Shown here: positions 54,555 to 62,822 of the stretch, in pieces
Numbering within the stretch: the stretch's first letter is position 1
Layout of the letters: every line of letters begins with the position of its first letter
NCBI GenBank assembly: GCA_017599285.1
Contig: JAGFXX010000001.1
Location: 1,612,001-1,676,000, forward strand
Length of the DNA stretch: 64,000 nucleotides
DNA from: Cereibacter azotoformans
GTDB taxonomy: Bacteria > Pseudomonadota > Alphaproteobacteria > Rhodobacterales > Rhodobacteraceae
Reading direction: 5' to 3'
Translations under genes and position numbers: made by a program
The notes under the pieces: generated by a model
Database searches by the model: none
What the model saw: only the letters and a program-made list of their open reading frames with translations
Told to the model about the DNA's origin: nothing

Positions 54555-57164
54555 TCAGCGGCTGATCGACCACCAGCCGCGGCGCCTGGGCTTGCTCTCC
54601 TCGTCCGTCTCGCCCGAGACCGGCTCGGGCTGGGGCTCGGGGGCCGCCTCGGGTTGCGGGGCCGCCGGGGCCGGCTCGGCCGGCGTCTCGACCACGTCGA
54701 GCGCGGCCTCGGCCGGAGCTTCATCGACCGTCACCGCCACCTCGACCGCAGGAGCGGCTTCCTCGGCTGCCGACGCGCTCTTGCGGCTGCGGCTCGTGCG
54801 GCTCCGGGAGGGCTTCTTCGGCTCCTTCGGCTCGGCTTCGGGCGCGGCCTCGGCGGGGGCCGCCGCACTCTCCTCGACCACCTTCGGCTTGCGGACGCGG
54901 GTGCGCTTGCGCGGGGCGGGCGGCTCTTCGGCCACCGGCTCGGGCTCGGCCACAGGTTCGGCCACCGGCTCGGCTGCGGGTTCCGCGATCACCGCCTCGG
55001 GCGCCATCTCGGGCACGAAGGCTGCCGGTTCCGGCACGTCGCCCTCGTCGGCGGTTTCGTCCTCATCCTCGTCCGAGTCGTCCGACTCGTCGCTCTCGGC
55101 CACCTCGGCGCCGGTCTGGTCCGTGGCACCGTTCGCGCCATTGCGGCGGCGGCGACGACGGCGGCGCTTTTTCTTGGGCTGGCCTTCAGAGGGAGCGGCC
55201 TCGGCAGGTTCCGCGGCCTCGACCGCTTCCTCGGCCTCCTCGACCTCGGGCTCCTCCTCGATCCAGTCGTCCTCGGGCTCGTCCACCGGCGCGCCCATGA
55301 GATCGGCGCTGCCCGAGATCACCTTGACCGTCTCGGGCACAACCCGCGTCGCGGTCTTGAACTTCTCGATCACATAGTCCGGGCTGGACAGCGAAGGATC
55401 GGCCTCGACCCGCACCGCCATGCCATACCGGGCCTCGATCATCGCGATATGCTCGCGCTTCTGGTTCATCAGGAAGTTGACGACCGCGATCGGGGCGCGC
55501 AGCAGCACCTCCTTCGAGCGTTTCCGCGTGCCCTCTTCTTCCAACTGGCGCAGCACCTGCAGCGCGAGGCTGTCGTCCGAGCGGATCAGGCCGGTGCCGT
55601 GGCAATGCGCGCAGGGCTGCGTCGTCGACTCGAGCATCCCCGGACGCAGGCGCTGGCGGCTCATCTCCATCAGGCCGAAGCCCGAGATGCGGCCGACCTG
55701 GATCCGCGCGCGGTCGGTCTTCAGCTTGTCCTTCAGACGCTTCTCGACGGCGGCGTTGTTCTTCCGCTCTTCCATGTCGATGAAGTCGATGACGATCAGC
55801 CCGGCAAGGTCACGCAGGCGCAACTGCCGCGCCACCTCTTCGGCGGCCTCGAGGTTGGTCTTGAGCGCCGTGTCCTCGATCGAGCCCTCCTTGGTGGCCC
55901 GGCCGGAGTTCACGTCGATGGCGACCAGCGCCTCGGTCACGCCGATGACGATGTAACCGCCGGATTTCAGCTGGACCACCGGGTTGAACATGCCCGAGAG
56001 GTAGCTTTCCACCTGATAGCGCGCAAACAGCGGCATCGGCTCATCGTAGCGGATCACCTGCCGGGCGTGGGCCGGCATGATCATCCGCATGAAGTCCTTG
56101 GCGGTGCGGTAGCCCGTCTCGCCCTCGACCAGCACTTCCTCGATCTCGCGGTTGAAGAGGTCGCGGATCGACCGCTTGATCAGGTCGCCTTCCTCGTAGA
56201 TCGGCGCCGGGGCGACCGACTTCAGCGTGAGTTCGCGGATCTGCTCCCAGAGGCGGAGCAGGTATTCGTAGTCGCGCCGGATCTCCTGCTTGGTGCGCTT
56301 GGCGCCGGCCGTGCGGATGATCAGGCCCGCGCCTTCCGGCACCTCAAGCTCCGAGGCGATTTCCTTCAGCTTCTTGCGGTCGGCGGCCTGGGTGATCTTG
56401 CGGCTGATCCCGCCGCCCCGCGCCGTGTTCGGCATCAGCACGCAATAGCGGCCGGCCAGGCTGAGATAGGTCGTGAGCGCCGCGCCCTTGTTGCCGCGCT
56501 CTTCCTTGACCACCTGCACCAGCATGATCTGGCGCACCTTGATCACTTCCTGGATCTTGTAGCGGCGCTGGCGGGGCTTCCTCGGGGCCGGGATCTCCTC
56601 GGCCACATCCTCGTCGGCGACGGATTCGATCTCGTCGTCGGTCTCGGCGGCGTGATCCACCGCCTTCCAGGGCTTCTCGGCCTCGTCCGCCTCGGGCCGG
56701 GCCTCCCCGCGCTCGGTCTCGTAGAGAGCGTCGGCGCCGGTCTCTTCACCGAGATCGACCACATCCATGCCGCCCACATCGCCCGACTGGACGGCATCCG
56801 CCGACGGCGCCTCGGCCGGGGCCGGCCGCGACCTGCGGCGCGAGCGGCCGTGATCCTCATCCTCCTCGGCGCGGGCGTAGGCCCGCTCTTCCTCGATCAG
56901 GGCCTTACGATCGGCCACCGGGATCTGGTAATAATCGGGATGGATTTCGGCGAAGGCCAGAAAGCCGTGCCGGTTGCCGCCGTAATCGACGAAGGCCGCC
57001 TGAAGCGAAGGTTCGACCCGCGTTACCTTGGCGAGATAGATGTTGCCGGCAAGCTGCCGTTTGTTGACGGTCTCGAAGTCGAACTCCTCGACCTTGTTTC
57101 CGTCCACCACCACGACCCGGGTCTCCTCCGGGTGGGTGGCATCGATAAGCATTTTCTTGGCCAT
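54555..57164 (-). CDS. rne: Ribonuclease E/G family endoribonuclease
   Basis: An 869-residue RNase E. The S1 domain starts at about residue 38 (GNIYLAKVTRVEPSLQAAFV) but is split by an acidic, low-complexity insertion of about 125 residues (roughly 75-200). The sensor and DNase I-like core contain AIDVNSGRATKEGS and VIDFIDMEE (catalytic Asp pair). The zinc-link CAHCHGTG follows. The C-terminal third is a disordered acidic and basic scaffold with KKKRRRRRRRR. It starts mRNA decay. ATG 57164 is chosen from MAKKMLIDA homology. Confidence 0.93.
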   Translation of the reverse strand: MAKKMLIDATHPEETRVVVVDGNKVEEFDFETVNKRQLAGNIYLAKVTRVEPSLQAAFVDYGGNRHGFLAFAEIHPDYYQIPVADRKALIEEERAYARAEEDEDHGRSRRRSRPAPAEAPSADAVQSGDVGGMDVVDLGEETGADALYETERGEARPEADEAEKPWKAVDHAAETDDEIESVADEDVAEEIPAPRKPRQRRYKIQEVIKVRQIMLVQVVKEERGNKGAALTTYLSLAGRYCVLMPNTARGGGISRKITQAADRKKLKEIASELEVPEGAGLIIRTAGAKRTKQEIRRDYEYLLRLWEQIRELTLKSVAPAPIYEEGDLIKRSIRDLFNREIEEVLVEGETGYRTAKDFMRMIMPAHARQVIRYDEPMPLFARYQVESYLSGMFNPVVQLKSGGYIVIGVTEALVAIDVNSGRATKEGSIEDTALKTNLEAAEEVARQLRLRDLAGLIVIDFIDMEERKNNAAVEKRLKDKLKTDRARIQVGRISGFGLMEMSRQRLRPGMLESTTQPCAHCHGTGLIRSDDSLALQVLRQLEEEGTRKRSKEVLLRAPIAVVNFLMNQKREHIAMIEARYGMAVRVEADPSLSSPDYVIEKFKTATRVVPETVKVISGSADLMGAPVDEPEDDWIEEEPEVEEAEEAVEAAEPAEAAPSEGQPKKKRRRRRRRRNGANGATDQTGAEVAESDESDDSDEDEDETADEGDVPEPAAFVPEMAPEAVIAEPAAEPVAEPVAEPEPVAEEPPAPRKRTRVRKPKVVEESAAAPAEAAPEAEPKEPKKPSRSRTSRSRKSASAAEEAAPAVEVAVTVDEAPAEAALDVVETPAEPAPAAPQPEAAPEPQPEPVSGETDEESKPRRRGWWSISR

Positions 57165-57645
57165 TTGATTCCATGGCACCCGGACAACGGGCTTGGGCCG
57201 GAGCATGCTCCGGCCGGGGTCCATTGCGCGTGGTGGCTTGTTCGGGCGTGGCTGCGCCGGGGGCCGGATCGTGGGCCAGACCGCGCGGAGCCCCAAGGGC
57301 CCTTCGCGCGGTCTTGCAGTCGGTCGGCGCGGCTCATCGCGTTTCTGTATCCCGAGACGCCGGAGCGTCCATTGCACTGGCCCGTTCCGTCAGGGACTTG
57401 GCGGGCGAACTTGTGGGCCTCGCGGCCCGGAGGTCTGCCAGGACGGTGCCCCGGACCCCTCGTCCGGATTGCGCGCTTGACAGAGAAACTGGTGCGCAAA
57501 CTCCTGCCGAATAGGGCAGAACCCGCGTAGGTGCGACATTAGCGGCAGGGACGGGCAAAAGACAATGGCCTATTTTTCCCCGACCCCCTGCAACCAGCGG
57601 TCGAGCGCGGCCCGGAATGGCCGCGAGGCGGGTGGATTGATCGGG
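57165..57645 (-). other. Long leader/promoter region of rne
   Basis: About 480 bases with no convincing gene. On the minus strand a TTGTCT-N18-TAATGT promoter candidate lies about 400 bases before the rne start, giving a long untranslated leader as in other rne genes. A perfect 20-base palindrome, GGCCGGAGCATGCTCCGGCC (57196-57215), sits 31 bases upstream of the ATG. A CGCGGCC/GGCCGCG hairpin at 57606-57625 follows the dctD stop. Confidence 0.5.
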
Positions 57646-58974
57646 TCAGACGTAGTCCGCGCGGCTCAGGCCATATTTGGCCATCTTCTCGTTCAGCGTC
57701 CGCCGCGGCAGGCACAGTTCTTCCATGACGGCCACGATCGAGCCCTTGTGGCGACGCATCGTGTTGTCGATCAGCATCCGCTCGAACGCCTCGACATAAT
57801 CCTTCAGCGGCTTGCCTTCGGTGGTCAGCGCGGGCCCCGACGCCTCGTTGTCGGCCATCAGCAGCGAGGCGATCGAGCCCGAGCCGCGCCGGTTCTGCAG
57901 CACCGCCCGCTCGGCGATGTTCACCAACTGGCGGACATTGCCGGGCCAGGGCGCCTGGAGAAGCTGGGCCGCCTCCTGCGCGGTGACCTGCGGCGCCTCG
58001 CAGCCATATTCCTCGGCGAACTGCTCGGACATGCGGGTAAAGAGGGTCAGGATATCCTCGCCCCGCATCCGCAGCGGCGGCAGCACGATCGTCATGGCGC
58101 CCAGCCGGTAATAGAGATCCGAGCGGAGCACGTTTTCCAGCGTCGTGTCCGGCGCGTGCTCGTTGCAGATCGCGATGATGCGTGTCTCGGGCGGGGTGCC
58201 CTGTTCGTTGATCACCGTCAGCAGCCGCGACTGGAGCGGGTGCGACAGCGACTCGATGTCCTCGAGGCAGAGCGTGCCGCCGCGAGCCTCCTCGACCAGC
58301 GGCAGGGAGCCGTCCTCGTTCGGGCCGAAGAGCTTGGCGGAGAGCTGATCCTCGGACCAGGCGGCGCAGGAGATGGTGACGAACTTGCGCCCGGCCCGCG
58401 CGCCGACCGCATGCAGCGCATGGGCCACCAGCGTCTTGCCGGTGCCGGTCTCGCCGTCGATCAGCACATGGCTGTCGGCCTGCCCCAGATCGAGGATATC
58501 CTCGCGCAGACGCTCCATCACCGGCGAGGAACCGATCAGCTTCTTCATCAGCACGGTGCCGTCCGACAGCTCGCGCCGCAGCGCCCGGTTGTCGAGCGTC
58601 AGGCGCCGCTGCTGCGTCGCGCGCTTGGCAAGCTCGGTCATCCGGTCGGGGTTGAACGGCTTTTCCAGAAAGTCGAACGCGCCCACGCGCATCGCCTCGA
58701 CCGCCATCGGCACGTCGCCGTGGCCGGTGATCAGGATCACGGGCAGGCCCGAATCCATGCTCATCAGCTTCTTGAGGAAGGTCATCCCGTCCATGCCGGG
58801 CATCTTGATGTCGCTGACGACCACGCCGGGAAAGTCCGCGTTCAGGCCCTTCAGCGCCTCTTCGGCACTGGCGTAGGTTTCCGTGTCAAAGCCCGAGAGC
58901 GCAAGCCACTGGCTGATCGACTGCCGCATATCGGCCTCGTCATCGACGATCGCCACCTTCATCGCACGCGCCAT
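57646..58974 (-). CDS. dctD: NtrC-family response regulator, DctD-like, lacking the GAFTGA motif
   Basis: A 442-residue regulator. The receiver domain has the phosphoacceptor Asp55 (VVSDIKMPGMDG). The AAA+ domain has Walker A GETGTGKT (174-181) and a Walker B-like GGTLCLEDI (232-240). The C-terminal Fis-type HTH ends the protein (SIVAVMEELCLPRRTLNEKM). Where GAFTGA should be, the sequence reads KLFGPNEDGSLPLVEEA (214-230), so the sigma-54-contacting loop is absent. It probably regulates C4-dicarboxylate uptake with the adjacent kinase, but through another RNA polymerase form or mode. Start follows AGGAAGAG. Confidence 0.8.
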   Translation of the reverse strand: MARAMKVAIVDDEADMRQSISQWLALSGFDTETYASAEEALKGLNADFPGVVVSDIKMPGMDGMTFLKKLMSMDSGLPVILITGHGDVPMAVEAMRVGAFDFLEKPFNPDRMTELAKRATQQRRLTLDNRALRRELSDGTVLMKKLIGSSPVMERLREDILDLGQADSHVLIDGETGTGKTLVAHALHAVGARAGRKFVTISCAAWSEDQLSAKLFGPNEDGSLPLVEEARGGTLCLEDIESLSHPLQSRLLTVINEQGTPPETRIIAICNEHAPDTTLENVLRSDLYYRLGAMTIVLPPLRMRGEDILTLFTRMSEQFAEEYGCEAPQVTAQEAAQLLQAPWPGNVRQLVNIAERAVLQNRRGSGSIASLLMADNEASGPALTTEGKPLKDYVEAFERMLIDNTMRRHKGSIVAVMEELCLPRRTLNEKMAKYGLSRADYV

Positions 58975-58983
58975 TGCTCTTCC

Positions 58984-60747
58984 TCACTCGGCTGCTTTCA
59001 CGTCTGCGCCCAATATGGGGAGCTGGACCTCGAATACAGCCCCGCCTCCCTCGGCGTTTCGCGCCGTCAGCCGTCCCCCGAGATCCGTCACGATGCCCGA
59101 CGAGATCGCAAGCCCGAGGCCCACACCCTCTCCGGGTTTCTTCGTGGTGTAGAAAGGCTCGAACAGGTTGTCGAGATCCTCGATTCCCTGACCATTGTCC
59201 CGGACGGTGAGGGTGGCCGTCTCGCCGGCCGCCAGAACGATGTCGATTTGCGGGCTGGCTACGCCCTTGGTGGCATCGAGCGCATTTCGCAGAAGGTTGA
59301 TGATCACCTGCTCCAGCCGGAGCCGATCGGCCATCACCATGACGGGCTGGCGCGGCAGCGTCCGGGTGATGCGGACCACGCGGATCTTGAGCTGCGGCTC
59401 CATCATCGTCAGCGCCGACGAGACGCAGATGCGCACATCCACCGGCTCGAAGGCCTCGCCCCCCTTCCGGGCATAGGACTTGAGCTGCCGCGTGATCGCC
59501 CCCATGCGCTCGATCAGGTCGTCGATCCGCTGGAACGAGGCCAGAGCCTCCTCGGTCCGCCGCCGCTGCAACAGCAGCTTTGCCCCCGCCAGATAGGTCT
59601 TCATCGCGGCGAGGGGCTGGTTCAGCTCATGGCTCACCGCGGCCGACATCTCGCCCAGAGCGGCCAATTTCGAGGATTGCGCAAGGGTCAGCTCGGCCAC
59701 GGCCAGATCCTTCTGCACCTTCTCGCGCTCGGCGATCTCTCGCTGCAAACGCGCGTTGAGCAGGCGAAGTTCCGCCGATTCGCGCTGAAACGACATGCTC
59801 TGCGACCAGGCCCGCCGCGACAGGAGATAGAAGGTCAGCGCAAGCAGGATCGCAAAACCCATGATCTCGAGCGCGAGAATGCCGTTCACCCGCTCGCGCA
59901 CCGAGTCGTAGGCGGTGAAGGTGACGATGCGCCAGCCGCGGAAGGGCACGCGCGCGTCAGTCTTCATCACCGCCTCGCCCTTCAGGTAGGCGTCCGGCGG
60001 CTGCTGGGCCCAGTCGGCCGTGGCCTGCAGCGCGCGCCGGATCGCCGAGGGCGCATCGCGGGCGGCCAGCGCCTCCTTGATGGTCAGGCCCCGCCAGCGC
60101 GGCTCGGTCGCGAGGATCACGGTGCCGGTGCTGTCGGTGACCATCACCGCATCCTGCAGCCCCGCCCAGGCGCGCTCGTATTTCATCAGGTCCACCGCCA
60201 CGACGATCACCCCCACGAGCCGATTGTCCGAGAGGATCGCCTTAGAATAGGTGAAGTCGAAGATGCCCGCGTCGCGCTGCGCCGAGGTGAAGACCGTATC
60301 GCGCGCCCGTTGCGCGTCGATGAAGAAGGGCTGGGTGCGGTGGCTCGTGCCGATCAGGTTGCGGTTCGTCGCCCCCACCGTCCGCCCGTCCTTGTCGAGC
60401 AGCATGATCGAGGCCGCGCCGATCTCGGTCTGGAACGAGATCAGCCGCTGCGAGGTGGCGGAATAGTCCCCCGACCCCAATGCCCCGATCAGCGCGGGAT
60501 CCCGCGCAAGCAGCAGCGGCACGACCGAGGTGCGCTGCAACTCGGTCAGCAGGTTGCCGGAGTAGAGCGCCAGACGAAGCTCCGCGCGCGAGCGGGTGCT
60601 CTCGGTGAAGCGTTCGCTCATCCAGCGGTTGGTGATGAGCACCACGGCAACCGCCACCAGGATGAGCAGGACGACCACGAGCTTGACCCGCCAGCCGTGA
60701 CCCGGCGGCGGCACCGGCGCATCGCTCTGATAGCCCGTCTCCTGCAT
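58984..60747 (-). CDS. dctB: Sensor histidine kinase, DctB-like
   Basis: A 587-residue membrane kinase. Two membrane helices (about residues 22-40 and 290-310) flank a periplasmic PDC/dCACHE sensor domain. A coiled coil, then HisKA with the phospho-His373 in AAVSHELNQPLAAMK, and the ATPase domain (NLLRNALDA, DNGQGIEDLD, GVGLGLAIS) follow. The architecture and the LNQPLAA motif are those of DctB. The ATG at 60747 is used; a GTG at 60798 overlapping the purQ stop would add 17 residues and is a real alternative. The partner regulator starts 9 bases downstream. Confidence 0.82.
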   Translation of the reverse strand: MQETGYQSDAPVPPPGHGWRVKLVVVLLILVAVAVVLITNRWMSERFTESTRSRAELRLALYSGNLLTELQRTSVVPLLLARDPALIGALGSGDYSATSQRLISFQTEIGAASIMLLDKDGRTVGATNRNLIGTSHRTQPFFIDAQRARDTVFTSAQRDAGIFDFTYSKAILSDNRLVGVIVVAVDLMKYERAWAGLQDAVMVTDSTGTVILATEPRWRGLTIKEALAARDAPSAIRRALQATADWAQQPPDAYLKGEAVMKTDARVPFRGWRIVTFTAYDSVRERVNGILALEIMGFAILLALTFYLLSRRAWSQSMSFQRESAELRLLNARLQREIAEREKVQKDLAVAELTLAQSSKLAALGEMSAAVSHELNQPLAAMKTYLAGAKLLLQRRRTEEALASFQRIDDLIERMGAITRQLKSYARKGGEAFEPVDVRICVSSALTMMEPQLKIRVVRITRTLPRQPVMVMADRLRLEQVIINLLRNALDATKGVASPQIDIVLAAGETATLTVRDNGQGIEDLDNLFEPFYTTKKPGEGVGLGLAISSGIVTDLGGRLTARNAEGGGAVFEVQLPILGADVKAAE

Positions 60748-60794
60748 GGGCGGGAAGGTACTGAAGGGCGCCTGACGCAACAAGCGCCGCGCGA

Positions 60795-61463
60795 TCACGC
60801 CAGCGCCATCCCGCCCAGCAGCGCGCGGAAGAGGCCCATCCCGTCGGCGCCGCCCTGCTCGGCCTCGATCGCCCGCTCGGGGTGCGGCATCAGCCCCAGC
60901 ACCCGGCGGTTGGCCGAGAGAAGGCCCGCGATGTCCTGCATCGAGCCGTTGGGATTCTCGACATAGGTAAAGGCCACGCGGTCCTCGCCACGCAGCCGCG
61001 CCAGCGTCTCGGGATCGGCGGTGTAGTTGCCGTCATGGTGCGCGATGGGAAAGCGGACCACATCCTCCGGCGCCCAGCCCGAGGTGAAGGCGCTGTCGGC
61101 GGTCGCCACGCGCAGATCGACGGGGCGGCAGATGAACTTCAGCCCCGCGTTGCGCATGAGCGCGCCGGGCAGGAGGCCTGTTTCCGTCAGCACCTGAAAG
61201 CCGTTGCAGATGCCGAGGACATAGCCCCCCCGCTCGGCATGACGGATCATGGCGCCGGCGATCGGCGAGCGCGCCGCAATGGCGCCGCAGCGCAGGTAGT
61301 CGCCGAAGGAGAAGCCGCCCGGCACCCCCACCACATCGACGCCCTCGGGCAGTTCGGTGTCCTTGTGCCAGACGCGGCTGACCGTGGCGCCCGCCTTCTC
61401 GAAGGCGGTGGCAAGGTCGCGGTCGCAGTTGGACCCGGGGAAGGTGATGACGGCGGCTTTCAT
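60795..61463 (-). CDS. purQ: Phosphoribosylformylglycinamidine synthase subunit PurQ
   Basis: A 222-residue class I glutamine amidotransferase. The nucleophile cysteine is in [12 protein letters not shown] (about residue 87) and the catalytic His/Glu in GLMPHPERA. It starts [16 protein letters not shown] as usual. It supplies ammonia for FGAM synthesis with PurS and PurL; purL is not in the window. It lies downstream of purS, with 171 bases between. Confidence 0.96.
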
Positions 61464-61634
61464 CGGCGGCGCTCCGGCTGGCAGAACTGGGGGCGGTGGC
61501 CGCGGGCAACGCCCGCGGTCGGACAGAGGCGTGGGCCCGGCGGAACCCGCGCCCCACATAACGCAATCCGCCCGACGCGAACAGTCCCGGGCGTGCCGAG
61601 CAGGCCGGACCGAAACCGGCCCGGCGACGCGGGC

Positions 61635-61888: not shown

Positions 61889-62641
61889 TCAGTTGATCAG
61901 CGTGGGCTTGGGGGAATGGGTGACGTTCGAGGGCAGCACCCCCAGACGCCGGGCGAGTTCGGTATAGACATCCTGCAGCGGGCCCGGCTCGCGCGGGGCC
62001 CCGCCCTCGCCCTCGGCGCGCACGTCCCAGAGGCGGCAGCTGTCGGGGCTGATCTCGTCGGCCACGATGAGGCGCATGTAGTCGCCCTCCCAGATGCGGC
62101 CGACCTCGATGCGGAAGTCGGCAAGGCGGATGCCCACGCCCATCATCACGCCCGACAGGAAGTCGTTCACGCGCAGCGCCAGCGCCACCACATCGTCGAG
62201 ATCCTGCTGGCTGGCCCAGCCGAAGGCGATGATATGCTCTTCCGAGACCAGCGGACAGCCGAGCTTGTCGTCCTTGAAGTAATATTCGACGATCGGGCGC
62301 GGCAGCGGCGTGCCCTCGGGGATGCCCAGCCGCTTCGAGATGCCGCCCGCAGCAAAGTTCCGCACCACCACCTCGAGCGGGATGATCTCGGCCATGCGGA
62401 CAAGCTGCTCGCGCATGTTCAGGCGGCGGATGAAGTGGGTGGGAACGCCGATGGCGTTCAGGCCGTTCATGAAGAATTCCGAAAGGCGGTTGTTCAGCAC
62501 GCCCTTGCCCTCCAGCGCCGGCTGGGGCGGGCTCGAGGAGGCGCTTCCGTCGTCCTTGAAGTACTGGATCAGCGTCCCGGGTTCGGGCCCCTCATAGAGG
62601 ATCTTGGCCTTGCCCTCGTAGACCTTCTTGCGACGTGCCAT
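61889..62641 (-). CDS. purC: Phosphoribosylaminoimidazole-succinocarboxamide synthase
   Basis: A 250-residue SAICAR synthetase. ATP and substrate segments: [12 protein letters not shown] (about 7-18), [31 protein letters not shown] and [10 protein letters not shown] are intact. The ATG at 62641 is preceded by GGAGTGTGC. It performs the eighth step of IMP synthesis. First gene of a purC-purS-purQ run. Confidence 0.97.
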
Positions 62642-62822
62642 GCACACTCCGATCGAACGACGAAGGGGGCGCGCACGGCGCACCCCGTTCAGGTTGCACT
62701 GGCCTATAAGCCAAGCCGCCCCGCCTCGCAAGGCAATCGCGGGGCGCGGCCGTGCGCGCACTTGCCCGGCCTTTGCGGCAAGGGCATATCAGGATCAAAG
62801 ACACTCTAGGGGAGGACCATCA

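Follow-up and report, generated by a model that had tools for sequence, protein, structure and literature searches.

A DctD-like response regulator that has lost both sigma-54-facing loops is near-universal in sampled Rhodobacterales genomes and appears to work independently of sigma-54

In this study, we analysed a DctD/NtrC-type response regulator, referred to here as DctD*, whose gene lies on the minus strand at exactly positions 57646–58974 of the window (the whole 64,000-nucleotide stretch of Cereibacter azotoformans DNA under analysis) and which lacks both L1, the GAFTGA loop, and L2. The explanation that best accounts for the evidence overall, and that we regard as probable, is that DctD* is a former sigma-54 activator which has turned into a sigma-54-independent response regulator. 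In functional terms, our analysis suggests that DctD* is most likely a phosphorylation-controlled, ATP-binding switch that hydrolyses ATP poorly or not at all and binds DNA at sigma-70-type promoters.

The gene codes for 442 residues and a stop codon, and its product has the Pfam domains receiver, Sigma54_activat, AAA lid and Fis-type HTH. Pfam's name for the matched model, "Sigma-54 interaction domain", is misleading here, the match of DctD* itself being well above the cut-off. Much of the framework of the family is intact. The receiver phosphoacceptor position D55 (58810–58812, minus strand) is invariant in a 40-sequence alignment, as are D12, T83 and K105. Comparison of 81 DctD* proteins, comprising that of the window and the best 80 of at least 583 relatives found in genome contigs, revealed that the Walker A motif GETGTGKT (residues 174–181; 58432–58455, minus strand) has its Lys in 81 of 81, with T/S replacing the bEBP Glu, and that the R-hand (Arg finger) R284-x-D-x-x-x-R290 (58105–58125, minus strand) is likewise intact in all 81. 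The Fis-type HTH (57667–57762, minus strand), with the recognition part LPRRTLNEKMAKYGL, resembles those of the GAFTGA-bearing DctDs L099 and L100. The retention of receiver, Walker A and Fis-type HTH that was given in a preliminary description of this gene is therefore borne out by the Pfam domains and the Walker A Lys, and loss of L1 with these parts kept is the pattern of the GAFTGA-less bEBP relatives. A structure model of DctD* built from the 40-row alignment had a mean pLDDT of 83 and a pTM of 0.51, so that the single domains are well modelled and their mutual arrangement is not. The best solved structural matches to the model were Brucella NtrX and then NtrC1, and VpsR structures were also among its fold matches.

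Both sigma-54-facing loops have been deleted. Residues 214–230, correctly described previously as something other than GAFTGA, read KLFGPNEDGSLPLVEEA, and the site of the L1 deletion is GPNEDGSL at residues 217–224 (58303–58326, minus strand). Alignment to E. coli PspF and to DctD-like proteins gave no shifted or complete GAFTGA but a shortened L1 span: from the switch Asn to Walker B, it is 36–39 residues in all 81 DctD* proteins, and 44 in both PspF and 23 of 25 DctD-like proteins from other alphaproteobacteria. The string G[AS]FTG occurs in none of the 81 DctD* proteins (window and 80 loci) and in none of 29 further order-sample loci. The second loop, L2, which the preliminary description had missed, is also gone in the PspF alignment, since the span from Walker B to sensor-1 is 33 residues in 81 of 81 DctD* proteins and 42 in PspF and in 25 of 25 of the same DctD-like proteins; the nine-residue L2 (pre-sensor-1) loop is absent at the G259-T260 junction (58195–58200, minus strand). 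GAFTGA is missing from the divergent members L161–L168 as well (57–68% identity by blastp), one of which, L162, carries a longer insert of unrelated sequence in the L1 position, with a span of 49. DctD* thus lacks L1/GAFTGA, L2, the Walker B D-E and the switch Asn, all of which are features of canonical bEBPs (AAA+ clade 6). The loop loss is real, fixed among the proteins read, and older and deeper than previously described.

The conservation of DctD* is maintained by purifying selection. In five close pairs, formed with the five highest-scoring relatives in a 390-genome search, dS was 0.40–0.70, dN was 0.010–0.061 and dN/dS was about 0.03–0.09, and mean identity to the window protein across the 80 loci was 87% in the receiver, 81% in the AAA+ domain and 94% in the HTH. 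A pseudogene or sequencing error as the source of the altered sequence is rejected by dN/dS and conservation. In our tree, all 19 sampled DctD* proteins fall into one clade (support 100/100), the stem of which measures 1.16 changes per site, and the neighbours of that clade are the GAFTGA-keeping DctD-like proteins L099–L103, although the joining fork (94/90) is drawn open. DctD* therefore clusters with DctD-like proteins and, in addition, is adjoined by a DctB-type kinase, as expected of the DctD lineage. The conversion apparently happened once, near the base of the Rhodobacterales, to judge from the tree. Elsewhere in the tree, L173, L108 and L109 form one clade of DctD-like proteins with GAFTGA deleted and DE intact, a loss separate from that in DctD*; L243, L248 and L249, which are outside the tree, look like members of that group. 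A further branch of DctD-like proteins, from other genomes of the order, has GAFPGA or GAFAGA (L175, L176, L178 and L234).

The distribution of DctD* was determined in an order sample of 390 Rhodobacterales genomes representing 139 genera. A match at E ≤5.4e-149 was found in 387 of them, and the best matches in the three genomes without DctD* (G490, G607 and G521) were only 7.7e-85 to 8.8e-54. For most of the 387 genomes, orthology is presumed from the score, the loops having been read in 46 (the window's genome, L132–L160, L161–L169, L095–L098 and three from the rpoN-less set), and no DctD* from these 46 has GAFTGA. In a class sample of 385 genomes, the five of the window's family match at 78–100% identity, and the remaining matches listed are at ≤44%. 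The same 390 genomes were searched for rpoN with two Pfam models. The sigma-54 DNA-binding domain was found at E ≤1e-3 in 117 genomes, 100 with strong matches and 17 with weak ones (E 4e-10 to 9e-4) that were scored as absent; the core-binding domain was found in 100, and the union of the two was 101 by hand count from two tables, which differ at G401 and G483. Neither model matched in 289 of the 390 genomes, such that rpoN was not found with these models in about three-quarters of the sampled order. All 289 of these genomes have a DctD* match and the three genomes without DctD* do have rpoN; the co-occurrence with rpoN expected of a canonical bEBP is therefore not observed. This absence of rpoN was checked against the bEBP-like proteins: among 28 distinct ones from seven rpoN-less genomes (L258 and L260 being merged as second pieces of L253 and L252, and three clear candidates, two from G252 and one from G022, being left out of the set), none has GAFTGA, and the nearest is one GAFPGA. 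Where sigma-54 is missing, the relatives retained in the sampled genomes no longer have the contact motif. In one rpoN-less genome, G562, dctD* is split over two reading frames (L207 8304–9625) by recent decay or sequencing error.

We conclude that DctD* is likely to work without sigma-54 because its loops have been lost, a match is present in all 289 rpoN-less genomes and selection on it is purifying. The loss of sigma-54 dependence that had been proposed from the motif is thus strongly supported by comparison of sequences, with both loops deleted. The rpoN-less strains offer a natural experiment, as any activity of DctD* in them must be sigma-54 independent. DctD* is near-universal in a large order with genetically tractable members, and the mechanism of GAFTGA-less NtrC-family proteins has been studied in few proteins.

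Use of sigma-70 is an inference from these observations, and the mechanism may be as follows. The adjacent sensor histidine kinase, DctB*, whose gene adjoins dctD* upstream (58984–60798, minus strand), would phosphorylate D55; phosphorylation together with ATP binding would determine how the AAA+ domain oligomerises; and the oligomer would bind DNA and activate or repress sigma-70-type promoters. Such control would need no remodelling driven by ATP and would work through ordinary contact or competition, as is reported for R. capsulatus NtrC. Of the alternatives, the one that survives best is that DctD* is mainly a repressor, or a competitor of another activator, rather than an activator. Nothing in its sequence demands activation, and Caulobacter NtrC is reported, in the accessible text of PMC10274813, to repress at CtrA-activated promoters; R. 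capsulatus NtrC, however, is reported there as an activator, and we consider a mainly repressing DctD* possible but the less likely case.

In a neighbourhood survey in which window genes alone served as queries and some loci ended at contig edges, dctB adjoined dctD in 80 of 80 loci. Upstream of dctB, purQ was found in 77 of these loci, and 70 of the 80 had rne downstream of dctD in the same orientation. The purQ-dctB-dctD order is kept in three divergent genomes. In the window, purQ (60795–61559), rne (54555–57377) and the purC ORF that is first in the cluster (61889–62761), all on the minus strand, were named by reading, and the dctB* GTG start overlaps the purQ stop by four bases, a later start near 60747 being possible. 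No dctB or dctD was found in the 9 kb around purQ in the three genomes without DctD*, two of which have purQ, then a small gene, then purL (named by reading). A sigma-70-like promoter, TTGCGA-17-TATAGG, lies ahead of purC (62703–62731, minus strand), and one was found before purC in 44 of 51 sequences versus 2.5 expected from mononucleotide shuffles; a sigma-54-like promoter was found there in none of the 51. An inverted repeat, GCAAG...CTTGC, overlaps the purC -35 box (within 62703–62820 of the window) and occurs in 31 of 51 related sequences versus 0.5 expected from mononucleotide shuffles. No tie of this repeat to DctD* was established. Between dctD and rne there is no widely shared palindrome, the commonest being found in 4 of 80 loci.

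In a more ambitious reading, which we consider less likely, DctD* would be an order-wide pseudo-ATPase transcription factor. Its AAA+ domain, without the two insertions typical of the clade and without the catalytic pair, would act solely as a switch that senses ATP and controls oligomerisation in a sigma-70 regulator; its sensor would have exchanged dicarboxylates for another ligand, and the purC-purS-purQ-dctBD* coupling would be functional. If this were true, ATP supply might be reported by the nucleotide-binding site itself.

A separate question is whether DctD* controls C4-dicarboxylate uptake from sigma-70 promoters, as the preliminary description had proposed in tying it to dicarboxylate sensing. 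That proposal is consistent with the HTH, which resembles those of GAFTGA-bearing DctDs, and with the DctB* sensor domain, which matches the DctB structures of V. cholerae and S. meliloti. The Arg of the F-R-P-Y-F motif, which we take to be a DctB ligand contact, is nevertheless found in only 3 of 78 DctB* proteins (77 of the 80 loci and the window, excluding the short L032 and L034 and one frameless locus) versus 8 of 8 other DctBs (of nine rows, the truncated and misaligned T_L202 being excluded), and mean DctB* identity over the 77 loci is 65% in the sensor and 82% in the kinase part. The neighbours are purQ and rne in the survey, whose queries were window genes and not transporters, whereas some other DctBDs, where their neighbours were read, stand near TRAP-type genes. 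In the window's genome, dctPQM (by reading) adjoins a FixJ-type regulator and a kinase in a dctSR-like arrangement, and a TAXI-type TRAP operon stands beside its own second DctBD (names by eye); a DctA-type carrier was not found in this genome, the assembly of which is rated 84% complete. The DctD-like protein at the TAXI-type operon (L192 7392–8711; G000:C1 2139391–2140710, minus strand) has GYLAGT and a Walker B NE. Context thus argues against the proposed tie, the link of DctD* to dicarboxylates is weak, and the signal it receives has probably ceased to be a C4-dicarboxylate sensed in the canonical way; control of uptake by DctD* seems doubtful to us. Fitness data exist for Ruegeria dctD-2 in the available part of PMC10041152, but dctD-2 cannot be equated with dctD*.

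Target promoters were also sought through the candidate operator of another DctD, and neither a target promoter nor a binding site of DctD* was found. In G490, a GAFTGA-bearing DctD is encoded beside dctP, before which there are tandem TGTGCG-N6-CGCAC palindromes and a near-consensus -24/-12 element, TGGCACG-N4-TTGA (L201 10647–10800), likely a canonical DctD operator. As evidence for DctD* targets the TGTGCG-N6-CGCAC palindrome was rejected, as it is not enriched: three genomes of the window's genus have 4, 4 and 2 sites versus 17, 30 and 21 of the reversed control. A strict sigma-54 scan, which allowed no deviation from GG and GC, gave a single site over 15 regions, but it overlooked the G490 element with its -12 box TTGA and carries no weight for absence.

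Whether DctD* hydrolyses ATP bears on how it would act. Walker B reads LEDI (residues 237–240; 58255–58266, minus strand), exactly as noted before, with E-D in place of D-E; the first residue of the pair is E in 81 of 81 proteins and the second is D in 80 and G in one. Numbered as in PspF, E43 is replaced by T/S in 81 of 81 proteins and N64 mostly by S (Asn being left in 1 of 81); D107 has become E in all 81 and E108 has become D in 80; R122 has given way to T/S or other residues, and E125 to N in all 81; K42, R162, D164, R168 and R227 are kept in all 81. The accessible text of PMC3419264 reports that in PspF the substitutions E43A, N64Q, D107A, E108A/Q, R122A/E and E125A/D/Q lower Vmax from 39.5 to 0.07–8.9 per min, that E43D and Y126 changes are mild and that E125 is nonconserved. 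Because E125 is nonconserved and Thr/Ser at position 43 is the ordinary AAA+ residue, the weight falls on N64, D107, E108 and R122. Loss of hydrolysis is therefore predicted for DctD* from its changed PspF-equivalent residues. The changed Walker B pair is, in our alignments, almost confined to DctD* among the proteins read, although the NtrC-like L259 of G386 likewise has LED.

The opposite possibility is that DctD* still hydrolyses ATP, with E238 and D239 in swapped order, for work not involving sigma-54, such as on its own oligomer or on a sigma-70 complex. None of the 81 proteins departs from the Walker A Lys, the R-hand or the sensor II Arg, the acidic pair is kept in 80 of them, and Caulobacter NtrC, which lacks GAFTGA, is reported to need both ATP binding and hydrolysis (PMC10274813, as far as its text is accessible). 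Slow hydrolysis may still be permitted by the E-D Walker B, as the main clade retains the acidic residue. Against this, the switch Asn and R122 have changed along with the Walker B pair, and in the divergent L161–L168 the second Walker B residue is D in five of eight and N in three, making the pair E-N in the latter with a second residue that is not acidic. We therefore consider productive hydrolysis unlikely and prefer a DctD* that binds ATP as a switch.

For the window's genome, in which there are two rpoN genes and GAFTGA or GSFTGA is present in at least four bEBPs (L001–L004), sigma-54 dependence of DctD* is excluded by homology only; for comparison, four rpoN and five bona fide bEBPs are given for C. 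sphaeroides in the available portion of PMC11999139. It is very improbable that DctD* still reaches sigma-54 by other surfaces in genomes that do have rpoN, this one included: of the two loops for which contact with sigma-54 and the -12/-11 region is reported (PMC7175178, in its accessible part), neither remains, and all 289 rpoN-less genomes carry a strong match as well.

DctD* joins a wider set of GAFTGA-less proteins. The preliminary description had presented it as a second case in the same lineage as Rhodobacter NtrC; it is indeed such a case, but not the sole second one, since GAFTGA is also lacking in the NtrC (L008), NtrX (L006) and second DctD-like protein (L005, GYLAGT) of the same genome, and HupR belongs here too. 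Both loops have also been lost in NtrC (L008 and its counterparts) and in a group of ~420 residues (L187, L189 and L261). We found no GAFTGA-less DctD described in the Rhodobacterales in the literature searched, subscription papers being mostly beyond that search, and one may exist. HupR, TyrR, DhaR and VpsR, which belong to other families than DctD*, are likewise related to sigma-54 activators and have a defective GAFTGA; TyrR, DhaR and HupR are stated to depend on sigma-70 (PMC3162934, accessible text).

The closest counterparts in lineage are the DctD-like L099–L103 and DctD itself (receiver structures PDB 1qkk/1l5y), which share the domain order, receiver, HTH and tree neighbourhood of DctD*, but L099–L103 keep GAFTGA, L2 and DE. 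NtrX (Brucella 5m7n/5m7p; L006) also has no GAFTGA and is the best PDB match of DctD* in both structure and sequence, whereas L006 has an L1 span of 40, a full-length L2 (span 42) and an intact D-E. Caulobacter NtrC resembles DctD* in being without GAFTGA, and the data of its authors point to sigma-70 promoters; it differs in having an eight-residue L1 deletion and in its reported need for ATP hydrolysis (PMC10274813, in part). As DctD* does, L008 and R. capsulatus NtrC represent an NtrC-type response regulator that has lost L1, and L008 has lost L2 too, with spans of 26 and 32 versus 44 and 42 in PspF; unlike DctD*, L008 keeps the Walker B D-E and R122, lies outside the DctD clade on a long, uncertain branch and has ntr neighbours (ntr cluster L198, by reading). 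The NtrC proteins of Caulobacter, R. capsulatus and other Rhodobacterales lack GAFTGA, and R. capsulatus NtrC acts with sigma-70 and needs ATP binding but not hydrolysis, as summarised in the accessible text of PMC10274813. The residue pattern of DctD* fits ATP binding without hydrolysis of this R. capsulatus NtrC type.
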